The notes under the pieces: generated by a model
The model's input: the letters and a program-made list of their open reading frames with translations, nothing else
The model's database searches: none
What the model was told of the DNA's origin: nothing
Source of the DNA: Candidatus Zixiibacteriota bacterium
GTDB lineage: Bacteria > Zixibacteria > MSB-5A5 > GN15 > FEB-12
Assembly: GCA_017999435.1 (NCBI GenBank)
Contig: JAGNLV010000001.1
Span: forward strand, 858,993 to 922,992
Length of the DNA stretch: 64,000 nucleotides
Direction of reading: 5' to 3'
Translations under genes and position numbers: made by a program
In this document: positions 4,475-18,204 of the stretch, in pieces
How positions within the stretch are numbered: position 1 is the first letter of the stretch
How the letters are laid out: each line of letters begins with the position of its first letter

Positions 4475-6439
4475 TCACCGTTCCGGCGTCGGCGTCGGCG
4501 ACTCCACCTCTGCGGCCGCGCTCGGCGCGCGCCCGATGATTTCGTCCACCTCGCGGCTGTCGACTGCTTCCTTCTCCAGCAGCCGGTGTGACAGGGCGTG
4601 GAGCTTGTCGATATGGGCGGTGAGAATGCCGCGGGCGATTTCCTCGGCCGTCTCGATAAAACGCCGCACCTCCTGGTCGATCAGCTCGGCCGTCGCCTCG
4701 GAGTAATCCTTGGTCTGCGCCATCTCGCGGCCCAGGAAAATGTGGTCCTCCGTCCGGCCGAACGTCACCGGCCCGACCCGCTCCGACATCCCCCAGTTGC
4801 ACACCATCCGCCGCGCCAGCTTGGTCGCCCGCTCGAGGTCGTTGCCGGCGCCCGTGTCGAGCTGGTTGAACACGATCATCTCGGCCACCCGCCCGCCCAT
4901 GAGCACCGCCAGCGTCGACTCGAGGTACTCCTTGGAGTGGGTGTGCCGCTCGTCCACCGGCAGCGACTGGGTCACGCCCAGCGCCATACCGCGCGGGACG
5001 ATCGTCACTTTGTGAATCGGGTCGGCCTTCGGCAGATACTTGGCCACCAGCGTGTGCCCCGATTCGTGGTAGGCGATCACCTTCTTCTCCTCGTCCGAGA
5101 TCACCAGCGACCGCCGGGCCGAGCCCATGAGCACCTTGTCCTTGGCTTCCTCGAAATCCTCCATCGTCACCGCGTCGCGGTTCTTGCGCGAGGCCAGCAG
5201 GGCCGCCTCGTTGACCACGTTGGCCAGGTCGGCTCCGGACATCCCCGGCGTGCCGCGGGCCAGCACCTCGAAATCCACTTCCTCCGAAAGCTTCACCTTG
5301 CGCGCATGGACGCGGAGAATCCCCTCCCGCCCCTTCACATCCGGGTTCGGCACAACAATCTGGCGGTCGAAACGCCCCGGCCGAAGGAGCGCCGGATCGA
5401 GCACGTCGGGACGGTTGGTGGCGGCGATGAGGATCACGCCCTCGTTCGATTCGAACCCGTCCATCTCTACCAGCAACTGGTTGAGCGTCTGCTCCCGTTC
5501 GTCGTGCCCGCCGCCGAGGCCGGCGCCGCGGTGCCGCCCGACCGCATCGATCTCATCGATGAAAATGATGCAGGGGGCATTCTTCTTCCCCTGCTCGAAC
5601 AGGTCGCGCACCCGGCTCGCGCCGACGCCGACGAACATCTCGACAAAGTCGGACCCGGACATACTGAAGAACGGGACGCCCGCCTCGCCGGCGATCGCCC
5701 GCGCCAGGAGCGTCTTCCCCGTGCCGGGCGGCCCGAGCAGGAGCGCCCCCTTGGGGATCTTGCCGCCCAGCCTCTGGAATTTTCCCGGCTCCCTCAAAAA
5801 ATCGATAATCTCGCTCAGTTCCTCTTTCGCCTCGACCACCCCGGCCACGTCCTTGAACGTCACTTTCGGCCGCTCGTCGGTCAGCAGCTTGGCCTTGCTC
5901 TTGCCGAACGAGAACAGCCCCCGGGGACCGGACGCCCCCTGCATCTGGCGGATGAAGAACAGCCAGACGAGCACGATGAGGAGCCAGGGAGCCGCCGCCA
6001 GGAGGTAGCCCAAAAGCGGGCTCTCCGTTTTCGCGATAATCTTGACGTTCTGCTTCTGGAGACGGTCCACCAGCCCGTAGTTGTAGTCCGGGAAGGGAAT
6101 CCGGGTCTTGAATTTCGTCACCGTCTGCCCCCGCTGGATCGATTCGAACGCTTTCGGCTCGCGCAGACTGCCCTGGACCTCGCGATCCTTGAACGTGACC
6201 TCGGCGACGTTGCCGCTCTCGACCTCGGCCATGAACTCCGAGTAGGTGACCTCGGCCTGGTCACCCGAGAAGGAGTTCATGTACGAGTAGATGACGACGA
6301 CGGCCAGGGCCAGCGCGATCCAGAACATGAGGGATCGGCCCGCCCCCCGCAGTCCGGGCGGCTGCTTGGATCCGTCCGGCCGGTTCTCTCTCCCCGAACC
6401 CGGTGGGGGCGGGGAACCCTTTGGCTTATGACTAGACAC
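4475..6439 (-). CDS. ftsH: ATP-dependent zinc metalloprotease FtsH
   Basis: Membrane-anchored AAA+ protease that degrades unstable membrane and regulatory proteins. The 654-residue product has a proline-rich cytoplasmic N-terminus (residues 1-35), TM1 at about 37-54, a periplasmic domain, TM2 at about 143-163, Walker A GPPGTGKT (236-243), Walker B IIFIDEID (291-298), the second region of homology, and the zinc site HESGH (458-462). It follows hpt by 87 bp. The order tilS-hpt-ftsH with folate genes nearby is a common bacterial arrangement. Confidence 0.98.
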
Positions 6440-6526
6440 CTATGCTCCGCTGTGTTTTCTTCGTTAGCCGCAACTGACTCTTATACCCGGCAGGCGCCCG
6501 GGAATTCACGTGTCTCCCCCGACCGC

Positions 6527-7075
6527 TCACTCCTCGATCATCCGGCCGATGAAGGGGAGGTTGCGGTACCTCTGGGTGTTGTCCAGGCCGAATCCGATGA
6601 CGAACTCGTTGCCCAGCGCGAACCCGACATACTTGATCACCAGCTTGCGCCGGTGGTTGGCCGGCTTGTCAATGAGGGTAACAACCTCGACCGACGCCGG
6701 TTCCACGGCCGCCAGTTCCCGGCTGATCGCCTCCACCGTCCGGCCGGAGTCGACGACGCCCTCGACAATCAGCACGTCCCGGCCGCGCAGCGAGCGCGTG
6801 AACCAGTGGTCCAGCTTCAATTCCTGCTGCGCGGTCCCGTCATGGTAAGATTCGGCCGAAATGAACTCCACCTCCAGCGGGAGTTTGACGGCCCGCATGA
6901 GATCGGCCATGAACACCACGCACCCTTTGAGCACGCCGAGAAACACGGGGGTGCGCCCGGCGTAATCGCGGGTGATCGCCTGACCCAGCTCGTTGATGCG
7001 TCGGGCGATCCGATCCTGTGCCAGGAGCAACTCAAACGGTTTCGGCTTGGCCTGGTAATCTCTCGCTGCACTCAA
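6527..7075 (-). CDS. hpt: hypoxanthine phosphoribosyltransferase
   Basis: Purine salvage enzyme that makes IMP or GMP from hypoxanthine or guanine and PRPP. The product is 182 residues. The PRPP-binding loop reads VLIVEGVVDSGRT, where the family usually has an acidic Glu-Asp pair, so the Asp is replaced by Gly. The TTG at 7075 was chosen because GGAAGG lies 9 nt upstream. It overlaps the tilS 3' end by 44 nt. A later TTG at 7030, one base past the tilS stop, is the alternative and gives about 167 residues. The gene family is certain. The start is moderately sure. Confidence 0.93.
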   Translation of the reverse strand: MSAARDYQAKPKPFELLLAQDRIARRINELGQAITRDYAGRTPVFLGVLKGCVVFMADLMRAVKLPLEVEFISAESYHDGTAQQELKLDHWFTRSLRGRDVLIVEGVVDSGRTVEAISRELAAVEPASVEVVTLIDKPANHRRKLVIKYVGFALGNEFVIGFGLDNTQRYRNLPFIGRMIEE

Positions 7076-10587: not shown

Positions 10588-12342
10588 TCACCGGGCCGCC
10601 GGCGCCTCCTGCCCGGCCAGCCACCCCGCCATCCGCTCCTCCAGGACGGTCAGGGGAAGGCAGCCGTGGGCGAGCAGTTCATCGTGGAAGGCGCGGATGT
10701 CGAAACGCTCCCCCAGGCGCTCTTCGGCCCGGCGCCGGAGGGCCTTGATTTTCATCTCGCCCGTCTTGTACGACACTGCCTGGCCGGGCCAGACGATGTA
10801 GCGGTCGATCTCGACCGCGATATCGTGGTCGGCCTTGCTGGAATTCGCCCGGAAGAACTTGATCGCCTGCTGCCGGGTCCAGCCCCTGGCGTGGAGGCCC
10901 GGATCGACCACCAGGCGGATCGCCCGCCACATCTCGTAGGTCAGCCGGCCGAATTCCGCATAGGGGTCGCGGTAGAATCCCATCTCCTCGCCGAGGCTCT
11001 CGGCGTAGAGCGCCCAGCCTTCGCCGTATGCCTCCAGCCACGAATACCTGCGGAACTCCGGCAGATCCTCCATTTCCTGCATGAGCGCAATGTGCAGGTG
11101 GTGGCCGGGCACCGCCTCGTGCAGCGTGAGAGCCTCCATCTCCCAGGTCGGCCGCGAGGCCAGGTTATAGGTGTTGGCGTAGAAGTACCCGGCCCGGCCC
11201 GCCCGCAGCGATCCCGGCTGGTAGTACGCCGTGGTCTGCGATTTCTCCGCGTACGGCGGGATCGGAATGACTCCGTAGGGCAGTTGCGGGAGCCGTCCGA
11301 AAAGGCGGGCCAGCTCGGGGTCGATGCGCTTGGCGATGTCGCGGTACGTGCTCAGCAGTTGCTCTGCGCTCGTGCAGAAGAAACGCGGATCGGTGCGCAG
11401 AAACTCGCAGAACGCGGCGAAGTCGCCCGCGAAACCGGTCTCCGCTATGATGCGCTCCATCTCGCCCCGGATGCGCCCGACCTCCGCCATCCCCGTTTCG
11501 AATACCGCGTCGGGCGTCAGCTCGCTGGTCGTGTAGTACCGGATGAGCGTGCGGTACCAGTCGTCGCCCCCGGGCAGATCGCGCCAGGAGACCGTTTCCC
11601 GGCAGCCCGGCAGGTAGGACCCCTCGAGGAAACGGTGCAGGCCGCGAAAGGCCGGCGCCACCCGCTCCGCAAACAGCGCTGTCGCCTGGGCGCAAAACCG
11701 CTCGCGGGCGGCCCCCGACAGAGCCGTCGGCAGCCGGCGCAGCACCGACAACAGCGGCGCCTCGGCCGCCGCGGCGGGGATCTGGTTGAGCACCTGGCGG
11801 GGAACCTCCCGGAGCGGTTCTCGCGGCGGCGTGATCCCCCGCGCCAGCCCCTGCGCGAGCAGCCCTATCGTCTGCTCGACCAGCAGCGGCAGCCCTTCCA
11901 GCCGGGCGAGCACGGCGTCGCGCTGGGCCGCGGTTTCCACCGGCATCAGCCCGACTATGCGCGCCGCGTCCTGCTGCACTCCGTCCATCTGGTTGAGCCC
12001 GAGCAGCTCCTCGGGGAAGCGCTGGCGCGCCCGGTCCTGCTCCTGCCGCCAGAGAAAGAGATCGTAGCTCAGCCGGTCGCGCGCGGAGAGCTTCTCCCGG
12101 TCGATGGCGGCGAGCGTCTCGATCAGGAGCGCCGTCGCCTCGCGTCGCCGGGCGAAAGCGCCCTCGGAGCAGTCTGTCCAACGGTCATGGTACTTCGGAT
12201 AACCCGTGCTCGTCGCCCACTCGGGGCGATCGGCCATCGCCCAATCCCAGGCCGCCTCGAGCAGACGCCGCAACCGGGCGGCATCATCCCGCCCCCGGCC
12301 GCGCTGGATATCCATACAACCGGTGCGCAATTCTTCCCGCAT
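10588..12342 (-). CDS. DUF885 family protein, putative zinc peptidase
   Basis: A 584-residue member of DUF885. The metal-binding signature HEAVPGHHLHIA is followed about 30 residues later by a conserved Glu in WLEAYGEGWALYAE, as in gluzincin-type peptidases. The C-terminal part has FFRANSSKADHDIAVEIDRY and WPGQAVSYKTGEMKI, both typical of the family. The ATG at 12342 has GGAAAGGA 8 nt upstream. No signal peptide or membrane helix is apparent from that start. Some relatives are exported. The substrate is unknown. Confidence 0.88.
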   Translation of the reverse strand: MREELRTGCMDIQRGRGRDDAARLRRLLEAAWDWAMADRPEWATSTGYPKYHDRWTDCSEGAFARRREATALLIETLAAIDREKLSARDRLSYDLFLWRQEQDRARQRFPEELLGLNQMDGVQQDAARIVGLMPVETAAQRDAVLARLEGLPLLVEQTIGLLAQGLARGITPPREPLREVPRQVLNQIPAAAAEAPLLSVLRRLPTALSGAARERFCAQATALFAERVAPAFRGLHRFLEGSYLPGCRETVSWRDLPGGDDWYRTLIRYYTTSELTPDAVFETGMAEVGRIRGEMERIIAETGFAGDFAAFCEFLRTDPRFFCTSAEQLLSTYRDIAKRIDPELARLFGRLPQLPYGVIPIPPYAEKSQTTAYYQPGSLRAGRAGYFYANTYNLASRPTWEMEALTLHEAVPGHHLHIALMQEMEDLPEFRRYSWLEAYGEGWALYAESLGEEMGFYRDPYAEFGRLTYEMWRAIRLVVDPGLHARGWTRQQAIKFFRANSSKADHDIAVEIDRYIVWPGQAVSYKTGEMKIKALRRRAEERLGERFDIRAFHDELLAHGCLPLTVLEERMAGWLAGQEAPAAR

Positions 12343-12381
12343 GGGGCGCGTCCTTTCCGCAAGAGGTGGTGTCGTTGAAGC

Positions 12382-12410
12382 AATATAGGGGCGAGCCGGC
12401 CGCCGCACAA
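12382..12410 (-). promoter_or_regulatory. promoter for the DUF885 gene
   Basis: -35 TTGTGC (12405-12410), a 17 bp spacer and -10 TATATT (12382-12387). Initiation near 12375 gives a leader of about 33 nt carrying the GGAAAGGA ribosome binding site. Confidence 0.55.
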
Positions 12411-12420
12411 CCGCGCGCGC

Positions 12421-14571
12421 CTACGTGCGCCGATCGACAATCGCCGCCCCGACCCCGGCCAGCCCGACCAACCCGATCAGACCGATCAGTATCGCCGGGA
12501 CACCCAAGAGCGGGAGCAGCACGGTCGGGACCAGCAGGGCGCCCAGCGATGAGCCGGCCAGCTCGCACGCATACCCGAGCCCCCGGTTGGCCTCGGCCGC
12601 GCTCGGATAGCAGCGCCGCGTCGCCGCCACGAACAGACTCCCCGTGGCGGCCGCCGCCACAAAGAGGAACAGCATGTGGTAGAGCAGAAAGGCCGAGGGA
12701 TCTATCCGGCCGGTCAGAGTCAGGTAGATCGCCAGCGCCAGGGCCAGAGTCGACAGCGAGGGCCAGATCAGACCGCGCTGCTGCGGCTGGCGCGCCGCAT
12801 ACCACGTCCCGACCGCCAGCCCGAGCATGAAGGCGCCGATCAGCAGGGCGATTTCGGAGTACAGAGACCCCGCCCGCGACTGGTACACGTAGAACGCCAG
12901 CTGCTCGGCCGCGAGCGAGACGGCACCGGCGACGAAATAGAGGACCAGGCCGTAGCGCCGGCCGGCCCGTCGGCCGGCGGCGCCCCAGACGATCAGGCCG
13001 ACCAGCGCCGCGGGCACGCCGACCGCCCACCACGCCGGCGAGCCGGTCAGCCCGACGATCGCGGCATCGACCGGGTGCCGCTCGGCCCGGAAACCGATAT
13101 GCTCCAGTGTCAGCGCGGGGCGATCGATCGTGGTCGGCGCTCCCTGCCCCGCGAGCGCCGCCTCCAGCCGCTCCGTCCGCAGCGGGCTGAGCCGGTCAAA
13201 CAGGTACGACGAGTTCACCCACAAGGGTCGGCAGGGCAGACTGTCGAGGCGGGCAAAAACCGTATCCAGCGGGACATCGAATACCGCCGCATCGGATGCC
13301 AGAAGCAGCGTCTGCTCCCCCGGCCACAGGATGACGTGGGCGAACACCTGCGCGAACGATGCCCGGAGGGTCGCCAGCAATTCCGCCTCGCGCCGCCCGA
13401 CAAACCGGTCGGTATCGTAGGCCGTCGCCAGAAGCACGACCCCGGAGTCGTTCAGCACGCGCCGAAGTTGACCGAGGAACTGCGGGGTCAGCAGGCCGGC
13501 CGCGCGATAGGTCGATGGGTCGCCGGGGTCGAGCACGATCGCATCGAACTCCCCCCGCCCGGTCCCCCCCGCGATAAATCGCCGCGGCAGCTCGTGCACC
13601 GGGGGATCACCTTCTCCGGCGAGTCCGTGCTCGGCCAGCGCCGCAGTGAGCCGCGCGCGCGGGTCCACCGAAGTCACCGTCAGATCGGGAAGTTGGCGGG
13701 CCAGCGCGCTCACTCCGAATTCGGTCCGTCCGATGAAAAGCACCTCGCGCGCCCCGGGCCGGTAGGCCAGGACCGGCAGCAGGTGACTCTCGGCCGCGGC
13801 CGCGTCCGGTCGGGTTGCCTCCACCGCATTGTCGGTGAGCAAAACCCAGGCGCCATCCCGCAGGAGGAGCGCCTGGTGGCTGTAGGGAGTGTCGAACGAC
13901 GCCGCGACCGCGTAGCCGGCATACTTGGCGGCCTCGAGCGCGCGGTTGAGCGGATGGTCGAGCGCCGCCACCGCCGCCAGCAAACTAACCGCCGCCAGGA
14001 CCGCCCCCGCCCCCCGGACCGTCCGCATCGACGCGCCGCCGCCGAGCGCGGCGGCCATGACGATCACCACCAGCGCCAGCGCGACCGCCGGCGTCGAGAG
14101 CACCGTCCCGGCCGCGAGCACGACCGCGAGCCCCGCCGCAAAGGCGCCTATCCCCTCGAACAGGTACACCCGGACGATTCCATCGGCCGGCGCCCCGTGC
14201 TCCCCGGCCACGGCCGGAAAGAGCCAGCCCGAGAGCACCCCAAGGGGAGCCATAACGAGGAAGGAGATGGTCAGGGCCGGCACGAGCGGGATTGCCTCCC
14301 CGACCGCCACGCCGTAAGCGAGCGGCGCGAGGCGGGCAGCGGCCACGCAGAGCGGGAGCACAAGCGAGGCGAGGACGAGCAGGAGCGCAGCCCGCAGGCG
14401 GCCGGGCCATCGACCCCCCGCCCAGGCTCCCGCCGCGACCGCCGCCAGCCACCCGAAGAGCGCGCTCCCGATGAACAGCTCGCTCCCCCCGAGCGAGGAC
14501 ACCAGTTCCCGCAGCAGGAGGGTTTGTCCGCCGGTGGCTACGAAACCCAACAGAAACGCCGAACGGTTCAT
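12421..14571 (-). CDS. membrane protein with embedded spermidine-synthase-like domain
   Basis: A 716-residue protein with about six hydrophobic helices in residues 1-205, a soluble spermidine-synthase/SAM-methyltransferase-like domain at about 240-470, and about seven more helices to the C-terminus. The usual SAM loop GGGDGG is replaced by FIGRTEFG. The acidic SVDPRA at the end of strand 2 and an IVLDPGDPSTYR segment in the active-site region remain, so aminopropyl transfer is doubtful. Its ATG overlaps the stop of the radical SAM gene (ATGA at 14568-14571), so the two are coupled. Membrane-fused spermidine-synthase-like proteins are common in deep-branching bacteria but their role is unknown. 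Confidence 0.85.
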   Translation of the reverse strand: MNRSAFLLGFVATGGQTLLLRELVSSLGGSELFIGSALFGWLAAVAAGAWAGGRWPGRLRAALLLVLASLVLPLCVAAARLAPLAYGVAVGEAIPLVPALTISFLVMAPLGVLSGWLFPAVAGEHGAPADGIVRVYLFEGIGAFAAGLAVVLAAGTVLSTPAVALALVVIVMAAALGGGASMRTVRGAGAVLAAVSLLAAVAALDHPLNRALEAAKYAGYAVAASFDTPYSHQALLLRDGAWVLLTDNAVEATRPDAAAAESHLLPVLAYRPGAREVLFIGRTEFGVSALARQLPDLTVTSVDPRARLTAALAEHGLAGEGDPPVHELPRRFIAGGTGRGEFDAIVLDPGDPSTYRAAGLLTPQFLGQLRRVLNDSGVVLLATAYDTDRFVGRREAELLATLRASFAQVFAHVILWPGEQTLLLASDAAVFDVPLDTVFARLDSLPCRPLWVNSSYLFDRLSPLRTERLEAALAGQGAPTTIDRPALTLEHIGFRAERHPVDAAIVGLTGSPAWWAVGVPAALVGLIVWGAAGRRAGRRYGLVLYFVAGAVSLAAEQLAFYVYQSRAGSLYSEIALLIGAFMLGLAVGTWYAARQPQQRGLIWPSLSTLALALAIYLTLTGRIDPSAFLLYHMLFLFVAAAATGSLFVAATRRCYPSAAEANRGLGYACELAGSSLGALLVPTVLLPLLGVPAILIGLIGLVGLAGVGAAIVDRRT

Positions 14572-15710
14572 TTGAACCGTCCGGGTATTTCCCTCCCGCA
14601 GGCCACGCACCGGTCGCCGGCCAGGCCCGCGGCCGAGGTGCGGTACCCGCGGCGCTCGATCACCAAGGCGCCGCAACCGGGGCACCAGGTCGACTCCGCC
14701 CGGTGGCCGGGAACGTTGCCCACATATACGAAGCGCAATCCCTCGGCGCCGGCGATCGCGTGCGCCCGCTCGAGCGTCGCCACCGGTGTCGGCGGAAGGT
14801 GCTCCAGGAGGTACTGCGGCGTGAAACGCGAAAAGTGAAGGGGAACATCCGCGCCCAGATACCGGAAAACCCACTGGCCGAGTTCCCGGAACTCGGCGTC
14901 GCTGTCGTTGAGCGTCGGCACCACCAGGTAGACGAGTTCCAGCCACAGCCCGGCCTTGCGAATCTGCTGCAGACGCTCGAGCACCGGCGTGAGCTCCCCG
15001 CGCACCACGTCGCGGTAGTAGGACGCGCGGATCGCCTTGAGGTCAACTTTGATCGCGTCGAGATGCGGCATCAGCTCGGCCAGCGGAGCCTCTTCGATGT
15101 ACCCGCCCGTGATCATCACCGACCGGATCCCCTGCGCCCGGCCGAGCCGCGCGATGTCGTACATGTACTCGTAGAACACCGTCGGCTCGCTGTAGGTGAA
15201 AGCGATCGTCGGCGCGCCCTGCTGCCGGCAGAGCGCCACCGCCGCCTCCGGCGGCAGATCGAAATTCTTGGTTTGCTCCGGGCGGGACTGCGAAATCTCC
15301 CAGTTCTGGCAGAACTTGCAGTTGACGTTGCACCCGGCGGTGGCCAGAGAAAACGCCGCCGTGCCCGGGTAGAAATGATTGAGCGGTTTCTTCTCGATCG
15401 GGTCGACATTCACGGCGCAGGGCTTGCCGTACACGAGCGTGTGATAGGTGTCCCCCCGGTTCTCCCGCACCCCGCAGTAGCCGCGCTCGAGGTCGGTGAC
15501 GCGGCAGCGGCGCGGGCAGAGCCTGCACTCAATGCCCCCGCCCGCCAGCTTCGTATAGTGGCGCGCCTCCTCCGACGACAGCGCGTCGCTCAGGTCGATG
15601 GCGCAGGCATTCTCGATCCCCCCGAGGAGGTCGGGGAGGAAGTCGGCGTGCGGGAGCGCCGTCGCCGCCGCCCCGCAGCCGAGGCAGCGCAGAAAGCTCC
15701 GCCGGTTCAT
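14568..15710 (-). CDS. amrS: AmmeMemoRadiSam system radical SAM enzyme with Tat-like signal
   Basis: A 380-residue radical SAM enzyme. The cluster-binding motif is CNVNCKFC (Cys127, Cys131, Cys134), followed by QNWEISQ as in AmrS proteins. The N-terminal part has CRLCPRRC and GYCGVRENR, and two CxxC pairs close the protein (CPGC, CVAC). The first residues, MNRRSFLRCLGCGAAATAL, look like a twin-arginine signal, which would put a normally cytosolic enzyme type outside the membrane. The start overlaps the DUF362 stop and the stop overlaps the next gene, both through ATGA. The function of AmmeMemoRadiSam systems is not known. Confidence 0.93.
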   Translation of the reverse strand: MNRRSFLRCLGCGAAATALPHADFLPDLLGGIENACAIDLSDALSSEEARHYTKLAGGGIECRLCPRRCRVTDLERGYCGVRENRGDTYHTLVYGKPCAVNVDPIEKKPLNHFYPGTAAFSLATAGCNVNCKFCQNWEISQSRPEQTKNFDLPPEAAVALCRQQGAPTIAFTYSEPTVFYEYMYDIARLGRAQGIRSVMITGGYIEEAPLAELMPHLDAIKVDLKAIRASYYRDVVRGELTPVLERLQQIRKAGLWLELVYLVVPTLNDSDAEFRELGQWVFRYLGADVPLHFSRFTPQYLLEHLPPTPVATLERAHAIAGAEGLRFVYVGNVPGHRAESTWCPGCGALVIERRGYRTSAAGLAGDRCVACGREIPGRFK

Positions 15711-16624
15711 GAGAACAACTCCCCGCTGGTCTCCCGACCGGCCCCATCGACGGCGCGCACGATCACGTCGATCCGGGCGAGGTCCGCGGCGCCGAGCCCG
15801 CAGGCGGCGGTATCGAGATAGGTCACCGCCCGCTTGTCCTCCGCCAGCGTCCCCAGCCCCGCCCGCGCGCGCAGGTATTCGATGATCTCCAGGCCGACCC
15901 GGTCGACCGCCACCGGATCATCCGACAGCAGGACCGCCCCGTACGGCGCCACGTGCTCCTCGCGGAAACCCGGGCCGCCGTGGTACTGCACGAGCACCGC
16001 ATCGGCGATCGTCAGCCGGTTCTTCCGCCGCACCGGCTCCAGCAGCGAGACATGCGCGCAGTATGGATCCCCGCAGTGGTCATGATACTTGTTGGGATTG
16101 TGAATCGCGCCGTACATGTTCTTCAGCCCGCCCGAGAGACCGACAATGGAGTGGTCCTTGAGCACCGGCAGGTTGATGTTCGAGTCGACGGCCTCGGTGA
16201 GCACGCGGCTCACCCGCGAGCCGACCTCCCCGTACGTGTGGATCTCGGCGGTGTAGCCGAAGCCGGCGGTGTCGGTCCCGAAACAGCGCCGCCCATTTCC
16301 CCCCACGTTGAGAGTGAAACCCGCCCGGTCAAGCTCGCGGTTGGAGCGGTCCCACACGATCAGGTCGCCGGCGGCCCAGCCGGCCGCTTCGAGAAGGTCC
16401 CCGGCGGCGGCGGTGAGCGCGGGCGGCGTCGAATTGCGCGGCCCGACCAGCGCGTTCACCTTCATCCCGATTGTGCCCCCCGGAAGCAGGCTGCGCAGCG
16501 CCGCCGCCGGGGGAAGGCCCGCCAGGTGCGCCAGGCCGACCTCCAGCAGGCGCCGGTAGGTCTCCGGACCCGGCCGCCGTCCGCCGGAAAAAGATACTGA
16601 CTTGACCACAACGACGCGCTGCAT
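15707..16624 (-). CDS. DUF362 domain protein
   Basis: A 305-residue DUF362 protein: GMKVNALVGP near the N-terminus, NLPVLKDHSIVGLSGGLKN in the middle, a HDHCGDPYCA cysteine-containing segment, and LSDDPVAVDRVG near the end. There is no ferredoxin domain and no signal peptide. It is the first gene of a three-gene overlapping operon with amrS and the membrane spermidine-synthase-like gene. The ATG lies 6 bp after a good -10 box and no ribosome binding site is present, so the message may be leaderless. The biochemical role of DUF362 is unsettled. Confidence 0.88.
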   Translation of the reverse strand: MQRVVVVKSVSFSGGRRPGPETYRRLLEVGLAHLAGLPPAAALRSLLPGGTIGMKVNALVGPRNSTPPALTAAAGDLLEAAGWAAGDLIVWDRSNRELDRAGFTLNVGGNGRRCFGTDTAGFGYTAEIHTYGEVGSRVSRVLTEAVDSNINLPVLKDHSIVGLSGGLKNMYGAIHNPNKYHDHCGDPYCAHVSLLEPVRRKNRLTIADAVLVQYHGGPGFREEHVAPYGAVLLSDDPVAVDRVGLEIIEYLRARAGLGTLAEDKRAVTYLDTAACGLGAADLARIDVIVRAVDGAGRETSGELFS

Positions 16625-16630
16625 ATCTTA

Positions 16631-16659
16631 ATAATATACGGCCCGCCGGAGAACGACAA
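16631..16659 (-). promoter_or_regulatory. promoter for the DUF362-amrS operon, likely leaderless
   Basis: -35 TTGTCG (16654-16659), a 17 bp spacer and -10 TATTAT (16631-16636). The start codon at 16624 is 6 bp past the -10 box, where transcription itself should start. Confidence 0.6.
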
Positions 16660-16707
16660 ATTCTTTCCGCCCGGCGGGCCCGCACCGCCGGAGATCGGGG
16701 AGTGCTC

Positions 16708-18204
16708 ATGACACGCTTCACCGTTTGTTTCCTGCTCGTGCTGCCGGCGGCGGCTGCTCTGGCCGCATCCGCGCCGCCCGTCACCCGCCCGCCCGCGGTC
16801 GCCGGTTCCTTCTACCCCGGCGACAGCGCGGAGCTGGCGGCCATGATCGCCGGCCAGTTGGCCGCCGCCCCCGCGGCCGCCATCGACGGCCGCATCGTGG
16901 CCATCGTCGTCCCCCATGCGGGGCTCGTGTATTCGGGGCCGATCGCCGCGCACGCCTACAAAGCGCTCGCGGGACGGCCCATCGAAACGGCCATCCTCTG
17001 CGGCCCCGCCCACCGCTACGGGTTCCGCGGCGCCTCGGTTTACGGGCCGGGAGTGACCTGGCAGACGCCGCTGGGCCCGGTGCCGTGCGATGACGCCCGC
17101 ATCGAACGCCTCCTCGGCGCCTCCTCCTGGCTCAAAGTCGTCCCCGAGGCCCACCTCAAGGAGCATGGGCTCGAGGTGCAGCTCCCCTTCCTCCAAACCG
17201 TCCTCCCCGGCGCGCACATAGTCCCGATCGCTATGGGCTACCCCGACGGCCACACGGTCGATGGGCTGACCGCGGCGCTCGTTGCCGCCGCCCGGCCCCC
17301 CGGGGCCGTGCTCATCGCCTCAACCGACTGGCAGCACTACCGCCCGGCCGCCGGCGGGTACCCGATGGATTCGCTCGGCCTGGCCTGCCTCGCAGCTTTC
17401 GATGCCGACGCGCTGCTGCGCAACCTCGAGGCGAAGAAGGTCGAGGCCTGCGGCGGAGCGGGGGTCGTGGCCGTAATGCGCGCCGCCCGAAAACTCGGCG
17501 CCGATAAAGTGAAAATCCTCGGCTACGGCGACTCCGGCGATCTCACCGGCGACAAGAGCTCGGTCGTGGGATACGCGGCCGTCGCCTTCTATTGCAGCGC
17601 CGACGGCGAGAACTCGGCCGCGCCGGGTGAAGCCGCTGCCCCGGAAAAAGGTATGGAACCATATGATCTGACCCAGGAGGAGCGGCAGACGCTCCTGACG
17701 ATCGCGCGCCGCTCTATCATCGGGTATCTCGAGGACGGCGCGGCACCGGATTTCGAGGCGGCCGGCAAGCTGGCCGAACCCGGCGCCGCCTTCGTGACGC
17801 TCGAGAAACAGGGCCGGCTGCGCGGATGCATCGGGCATGTCGTCGCCGCCGATCCCCTCTTCCGGACGGTGGCGGCCTGCGCCGTGCAGGCGGCCGTCGG
17901 GGACCCGCGGTTCGAACCCGTCACCCGGTCCGAAATCGATCAACTCACGATTGAGATCTCGGTCCTCACCCCGCTGCAGGCGGTGACAATATTCGAGGAA
18001 ATCGAGGTCGGGCGGGACGGCCTGATCATTTCACTCGGCCCGAACCGCGGGCTTCTGCTGCCGCAGGTGGCGACAGAGTACGGGTGGACACGGGAGGAGT
18101 TTCTGCGCCAGACCTGCCGCAAAGCGGGCTTGTCGCCCGATGCCTACAAGTCGCCGCAGGCGAAAGTGGAGCGGTTTCAGGCGCTCGTGTTCGGCGAAGA
18201 GTGA
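16708..18204 (+). CDS. exported AmmeMemoRadiSam protein B-A fusion (MEMO-AMMECR1)
   Basis: A 498-residue protein with a Sec signal peptide (residues about 1-20, ending AAAALAA), a MEMO/AmrB domain (about 25-295, with VPHAGLVYSGP, CGPAHRYGF, EHGLEVQLPF and STDWQHY) and an AMMECR1/AmrA domain (about 315-498, with EPGAAFVTLEKQGRLRGCIG and VGDPRFEPVT). These are usually two separate proteins. The ATG at 16708 has GGGGAG 6 nt upstream and was preferred to a GTG two codons earlier. It is divergent from amrS, its usual partner. The AMMECR1 Cys of LRGCIG is conserved. Confidence 0.93.
   Translation: MTRFTVCFLLVLPAAAALAASAPPVTRPPAVAGSFYPGDSAELAAMIAGQLAAAPAAAIDGRIVAIVVPHAGLVYSGPIAAHAYKALAGRPIETAILCGPAHRYGFRGASVYGPGVTWQTPLGPVPCDDARIERLLGASSWLKVVPEAHLKEHGLEVQLPFLQTVLPGAHIVPIAMGYPDGHTVDGLTAALVAAARPPGAVLIASTDWQHYRPAAGGYPMDSLGLACLAAFDADALLRNLEAKKVEACGGAGVVAVMRAARKLGADKVKILGYGDSGDLTGDKSSVVGYAAVAFYCSADGENSAAPGEAAAPEKGMEPYDLTQEERQTLLTIARRSIIGYLEDGAAPDFEAAGKLAEPGAAFVTLEKQGRLRGCIGHVVAADPLFRTVAACAVQAAVGDPRFEPVTRSEIDQLTIEISVLTPLQAVTIFEEIEVGRDGLIISLGPNRGLLLPQVATEYGWTREEFLRQTCRKAGLSPDAYKSPQAKVERFQALVFGEE

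Follow-up and report, generated by a model that had tools for sequence, protein, structure and literature searches.

The locus considered here lies in a stretch of 64,000 nucleotides from a Candidatus Zixiibacteriota genome (contig JAGNLV010000001.1, positions 858,993 to 922,992), which we call the window, and it clusters the three components of the AmmeMemoRadiSam system, AmrS, AmrB and AmrA, with a DUF362 protein and a membrane protein. On the minus strand an operon runs in the order DUF362 (15707..16624), AmrS (14568..15710) and membrane protein (12421..14571), each of the two junctions being a 4-base ATGA overlap. A fusion of AmrB (MEMO) and AmrA (AMMECR1) is read divergently on the plus strand, from 16702 (or an ATG at 16708) to 18204, and the region between the DUF362 gene and this fusion (16625..16707) leaves a gap of about 80 bases. 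An earlier note on this DNA had described this three-gene overlapping operon and its divergent fusion, and both are found where it placed them. The components of this system are thought to work inside cells. We consider it highly probable, on the predictions set out below, that the set at this locus is exported and acts as a four-protein unit.

All three AmmeMemoRadiSam proteins score above their curated cut-offs. AmrS, a radical S-adenosylmethionine (SAM) enzyme of 380 amino acids, matches TIGR04337 at 367.7 bits (cut-off 220), and the fusion matches TIGR04336 (AmrB) at 245 bits (cut-off 26) and TIGR04335 (AmrA) at 183 bits (cut-off 99). The conserved histidine and cysteine positions of AmrB are retained, as judged by eye, and the CxxxCxxC cluster motif of AmrS (C127, C131 and C134; 15309..15332, minus strand) is in place. 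The DUF362 protein matches PF04015 at 68.7 bits against a gathering score of 24. Its structural model resembles LarA and malate racemases (Foldseek E 1e-6, TM-score 0.4-0.5), in keeping with the LarA/DUF362 clan (Pfam CL0471, PMC11770544), although LarA has about 400 residues and the window protein about 305.

What sets these proteins apart from the AmmeMemoRadiSam system as generally understood is a Tat-type (twin-arginine translocation) AmrS, a Sec-type fusion, and the DUF362 and membrane-protein partners. The first 37 residues of AmrS (15600..15710, minus strand), which begin MNRRSFLRCLGCGAAATAL, run from MNRRSFLR to NACA and combine a twin-arginine motif, a weakly hydrophobic stretch and an AxA-type site. 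The same combination, with the site at about residues 25-48, is found in 61 of 61 AmrS of the exported type, nearly all of which also have x-F after the two arginines, and it is absent from the signal-less AmrS paralogues. For the single window sequence the Tat call is weak; its conservation in all 61 suggests more than chance, and we claim that the window AmrS carries a predicted Tat-type signal. TatC is encoded in the same genome (225.8 bits). The fusion begins MTRFTVCFLLVLPAAAALAAS, a Sec-type signal (16708..16767, plus strand), and linked fusions have Sec-type N termini in nearly all relatives. The two signals that the earlier note had proposed, one twin-arginine-like and one Sec, are supported by comparison with relatives.

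A further comparison was made with fusions that stand apart from AmrS. Among 20 such regions, of which 5 were unreadable by the pattern used, the unlinked single AmrB-AmrA of genomes with a Tat-type AmrS carries a Sec or lipobox signal in all 11 cases that could be read, and the 4 fusions from genomes that lack a Tat-type AmrS have none. The localisation of AmrS and that of AmrB-AmrA therefore appear to travel together.

The membrane protein has no Pfam match, and its matches to polyamine aminopropyltransferases lie below threshold. At the level of its family profile, solved spermidine synthases are found in the Protein Data Bank at E 3e-26. An AlphaFold model built on a 36-sequence alignment (predicted local distance difference test score 91) shows seven transmembrane (TM) helices, a soluble domain at residues 221-510 (13042..13911, minus strand), and seven more helices, in agreement with the earlier view of this gene as a membrane protein with a soluble domain. 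Superposed with VIA-align, the TM part lies over its whole length on transporters of the major facilitator superfamily (MFS; Z 26-28), namely G6PT1 (9ll1; Z 27.6, root-mean-square deviation 3.5, 338 residues), NorA and SotB; compared with these, the window protein adds two helices, giving 14, which carry the inserted domain between TM7 and TM8. The soluble domain itself has the aminopropyltransferase fold (1uir; Z 27.0, root-mean-square deviation 2.7, 270 aligned residues), with 21% identity to the solved spermidine synthases 1uir and 3anx at Z 27. Lysine and arginine average 17.3 per sequence on the N-terminal side of the membrane and 1.4 on the other, a bias on which all 36 sequences agree. 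Because the positive residues lie almost only on the N-terminal side, the positive-inside rule predicts that the soluble domain is outside the cytoplasm.

The fold and homology of this domain could be taken to indicate that the protein joins a true polyamine synthase to an exporter of polyamines. Spermidine synthases, however, depend on residues that the family has not kept. At the GxG(D/E)G site the acidic residue for decarboxylated SAM is lost; the window's clade reads GRxEFG (GRTEFG in the window) and many relatives have GGG and then a hydrophobic residue. The catalytic DxxDP reads DPGDP in the window, and this position varies across the family, its first aspartate often being asparagine. 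The motifs, the predicted extracytoplasmic position of a membrane-embedded domain and a score of 21.6 against a cut-off of 260 with the curated polyamine model led us to rule this reading out as very improbable. The domain had previously been called degenerate; that description holds best in the window's own clade, whereas in most relatives the nucleoside-binding GGG is retained and the main loss is that of the residue for decarboxylated SAM.

A close parallel to this architecture is the fungal NHMT/AN4663, a protein of seven TM helices followed by a domain of spermidine-synthase fold that modifies secreted proteins, and for which the replaced acidic residue in GxG(D/E)G has been argued to indicate a methyltransferase rather than a spermidine synthase (PMC10349129). 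As far as a comparison by published description goes, the layout, the lost acidic residue and the role on the secretory side are shared with the membrane protein of the window. By analogy, the outer domain could be an extracytoplasmic SAM-dependent methyltransferase, with AmrS, AmrB, AmrA and DUF362 maturing or modifying the same exported target. We regard this as rather unlikely. NHMT ends after its soluble domain, while the window protein adds a second set of seven helices that completes the MFS fold and argues for transport; moreover, the window's clade does not have the GGG motif, and no target gene is linked to the locus.

Within the phylum, a survey of 132 genomes separates the AmrS proteins into two groups, one of about 380 amino acids that aligns to the window protein from residue 1-3 and one of about 330 whose alignment starts only near residue 47. 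In 60 neighbourhoods of the longer type, the order DUF362, AmrS, membrane protein is kept in nearly all, and a linked AmrB-AmrA fusion is present at 38 loci with the window counted. This conservation of gene order in some 60 genomes rules out chance linkage and bears out the four-gene association that the earlier note had left to a survey of genomes. Of the 132 genomes, 76 have both a Tat-type AmrS and the membrane protein, 3 have the one alone and 3 the other (several of these discordant genomes are drafts), and 50 have neither; the Fisher p of 6e-29 comes from related genomes and should not be read as if the events were independent. Immediately downstream of the operon lies a gene for a DUF885 protein (10588-12408; 577 bits), which is not a conserved neighbour in relatives.

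The genome that carries the window (3.5 Mb, 98% complete) provides an internal control, since the signal-less set coexists with the exported one. It encodes a second AmrS of 331 amino acids without the N-terminal extension and a second AmrB-AmrA fusion, at two other places that are not linked to each other, and neither has a linked DUF362 or membrane-protein gene. Among relatives, too, the signal-less AmrS loci have no DUF362, membrane-protein or AmrB-AmrA partners nearby; the one locus with linked partners among those presumed signal-less (L093) proved to have a Tat-type AmrS. It is because the signal-less copies have no linked partners that the gene set of the window can be seen as the special one. 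A third radical SAM match in this genome (G000:C1:1227800-1228126) is weak and falls under the AmrS cut-off.

The earlier note had placed the chemistry at the membrane or periplasm in this lineage. The export signals and the predicted outer-face domain support the placement; the restriction to a lineage does not hold, as the branch occurs in many phyla. We scanned named genomes with exported AmrS, taking the best 80 of 592 candidates, a sample biased to exported forms that yields no frequency. Among these, an export signal together with a linked membrane protein is found in records labelled Latescibacterota, Acidobacteria, Chloroflexi, Desulfobacterales and Bacteroidales, and further in Omnitrophota (with signals of Sec or anchor type), Ignavibacteriae, Planctomycetia and an Altiarchaeote, which rules out a quirk of one lineage. 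The membrane protein is linked at 31 of 61 exported loci, one of which (L127) belongs to the window's own phylum, and at 0 of 17 signal-less loci; this count leaves out one locus of unclear state, and p = 7e-4 when it is included. Read from the DNA, L117, L140, L162 and L132 show a Tat or anchor sequence, sometimes behind an apparent frameshift, with L104 as the exception. A tree built from the catalytic domains of 105 AmrS has about four changes of export state, compared with 23.9 for shuffled labels.

Radical SAM chemistry is usually assigned to the cytoplasm, and two alternatives to an exported radical SAM catalyst were weighed. In the first, the exported AmrS is an iron-sulfur (Fe-S) electron-transfer or scaffold protein rather than a radical SAM catalyst. 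The Tat pathway classically carries Fe-S redox proteins, and no SAM is known outside. However, CxxxCxxC is invariant in 50 exported AmrS, as are the SAM-binding residues and, across many phyla, most of the other residues common to signal-less AmrS. Since its radical SAM and SAM-binding residues are invariant, the exported AmrS looks catalytic, and we hold the Fe-S alternative to be improbable. In the second, AmrS is tethered by an uncleaved N terminus or kept in the cytoplasm and works on the inner side, where SAM and reductant are found, so that the signals would be anchors; some Omnitrophota relatives do have possible signal-anchor N termini. Against this stand the twin arginines with their conserved AxA-type sites, the exported AmrB-AmrA, the outer spermidine-synthase domain and the Tat motif on DUF362 elsewhere, as well as a heme-c motif in some AmrS, and there is in our estimate little chance that the signals serve as anchors only.

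The heme-c motif, CxxCH, follows the Tat signal and precedes the first cysteine cluster in six AmrS (L093, at 5279-6577, L098, L099, L100, L101 and L103), one of them in the window's phylum and the others including records labelled Latescibacterota, Acidobacteria and Chloroflexi. Attachment of heme c takes place outside the cytoplasm, and the two genomes of this kind that were checked both have cytochrome c assembly genes. No multiheme genes were found adjoining exported AmrS. At six loci (L126:10444-11104 and five others) the exported AmrS adjoins a membrane gene that by eye is CcdA/DsbD-like and could supply reducing power on the outside. At about 20 loci (L021:7658-8633, L051:1878-3570 and about 18 more) two genes lie on the opposite strand downstream of the membrane protein, one for a NapH-like membrane polyferredoxin and one for a second DUF362 with a Tat motif, and these could carry electrons to the periplasm; homologues of this second DUF362 are encoded elsewhere in the window genome.

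We propose the following mechanism. AmrS would fold in the cytoplasm, acquire its [4Fe-4S] cluster there and then leave by Tat, probably carrying DUF362 with it. Because the DUF362 proteins that were read in the window's phylum, including that of the window itself, have no Tat motif or signal of their own, they may ride out with AmrS; PaoABC, a trimer exported by Tat, is a known hitchhiker of this kind (PMC4273604). Outside the phylum, DUF362 beside AmrS has its own Tat motif at 9 of 9 loci. AmrB-AmrA would take the Sec route and would, in some relatives, become a lipoprotein; all the proteins would then work at the outer side of the inner membrane, beside the MFS-fold protein. There AmrS, AmrB with its metal site and AmrA might carry out a radical modification of a secreted protein, a peptide or an envelope molecule, with electrons from a periplasmic donor or, in some AmrS, entering through the heme-c motif that the enzyme itself carries. 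As the periplasm is not expected to contain SAM, we suggest, tentatively, that the MFS protein shuttles SAM or the products methionine and 5'-deoxyadenosine across the membrane, and that its outer domain serves AmrS by binding the adenosyl compound. More doubtful still is the broader proposition that this protein exports SAM as an MFS-type transporter and binds it through its outer domain, and that radical SAM enzymes operate outside the cytoplasm in many bacteria.

Several points weigh against this model. The Pfam TAT_signal model gives the window AmrS 15.8 bits, under its cut-off of 22.7, and matches only 10 of 50 exported AmrS even at E 0.1 (0 of 13 signal-less). With 21 positions it is a short and insensitive model, and we dropped the Pfam and NCBIfam Tat models as proof of a signal. 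The signal calls rest on a motif script and conservation, and the script divides Tat from Sec roughly, several Omnitrophota sequences (L106, L109 and L141) that it labels Tat looking like Sec or anchor signals. The DUF362 of the window's phylum has no signal, so that hitchhiking is assumed, and half of the out-of-phylum exported AmrS loci, some of them at contig ends, have no linked membrane protein. The altered adenosyl-binding motif of the window's clade (GRxEFG, VDPR) weakens the SAM-handling step and speaks against a simple SAM role there. We know of no low-potential donor or SAM pool in the periplasm, and localisation, SAM transport and activity are each predicted only. An extracytoplasmic AmmeMemoRadiSam branch is in our judgement the best explanation of the whole, and a fairly likely one.

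The AmmeMemoRadiSam system itself is known; within the open-access texts that we searched, we did not find its exported branch with this partner set described. Part of the linkage may already be published, as Burroughs et al. (2019) reportedly announce new gene contexts of Memo. MEMO1 and AMMECR1 are linked to human disease, and AmrS, AmrB and AmrA are their prokaryotic context. If one branch of the system does work outside the cytoplasm, its substrate would be there as well, and the search would narrow to secreted proteins or envelope molecules, with the signal-less copy in the same genome as a control. Such export would call for both SAM and a strong reductant beyond the cytoplasm, and may point to an extracytoplasmic SAM economy in which, in some lineages, a radical SAM enzyme with covalent heme c would be the point of electron entry.

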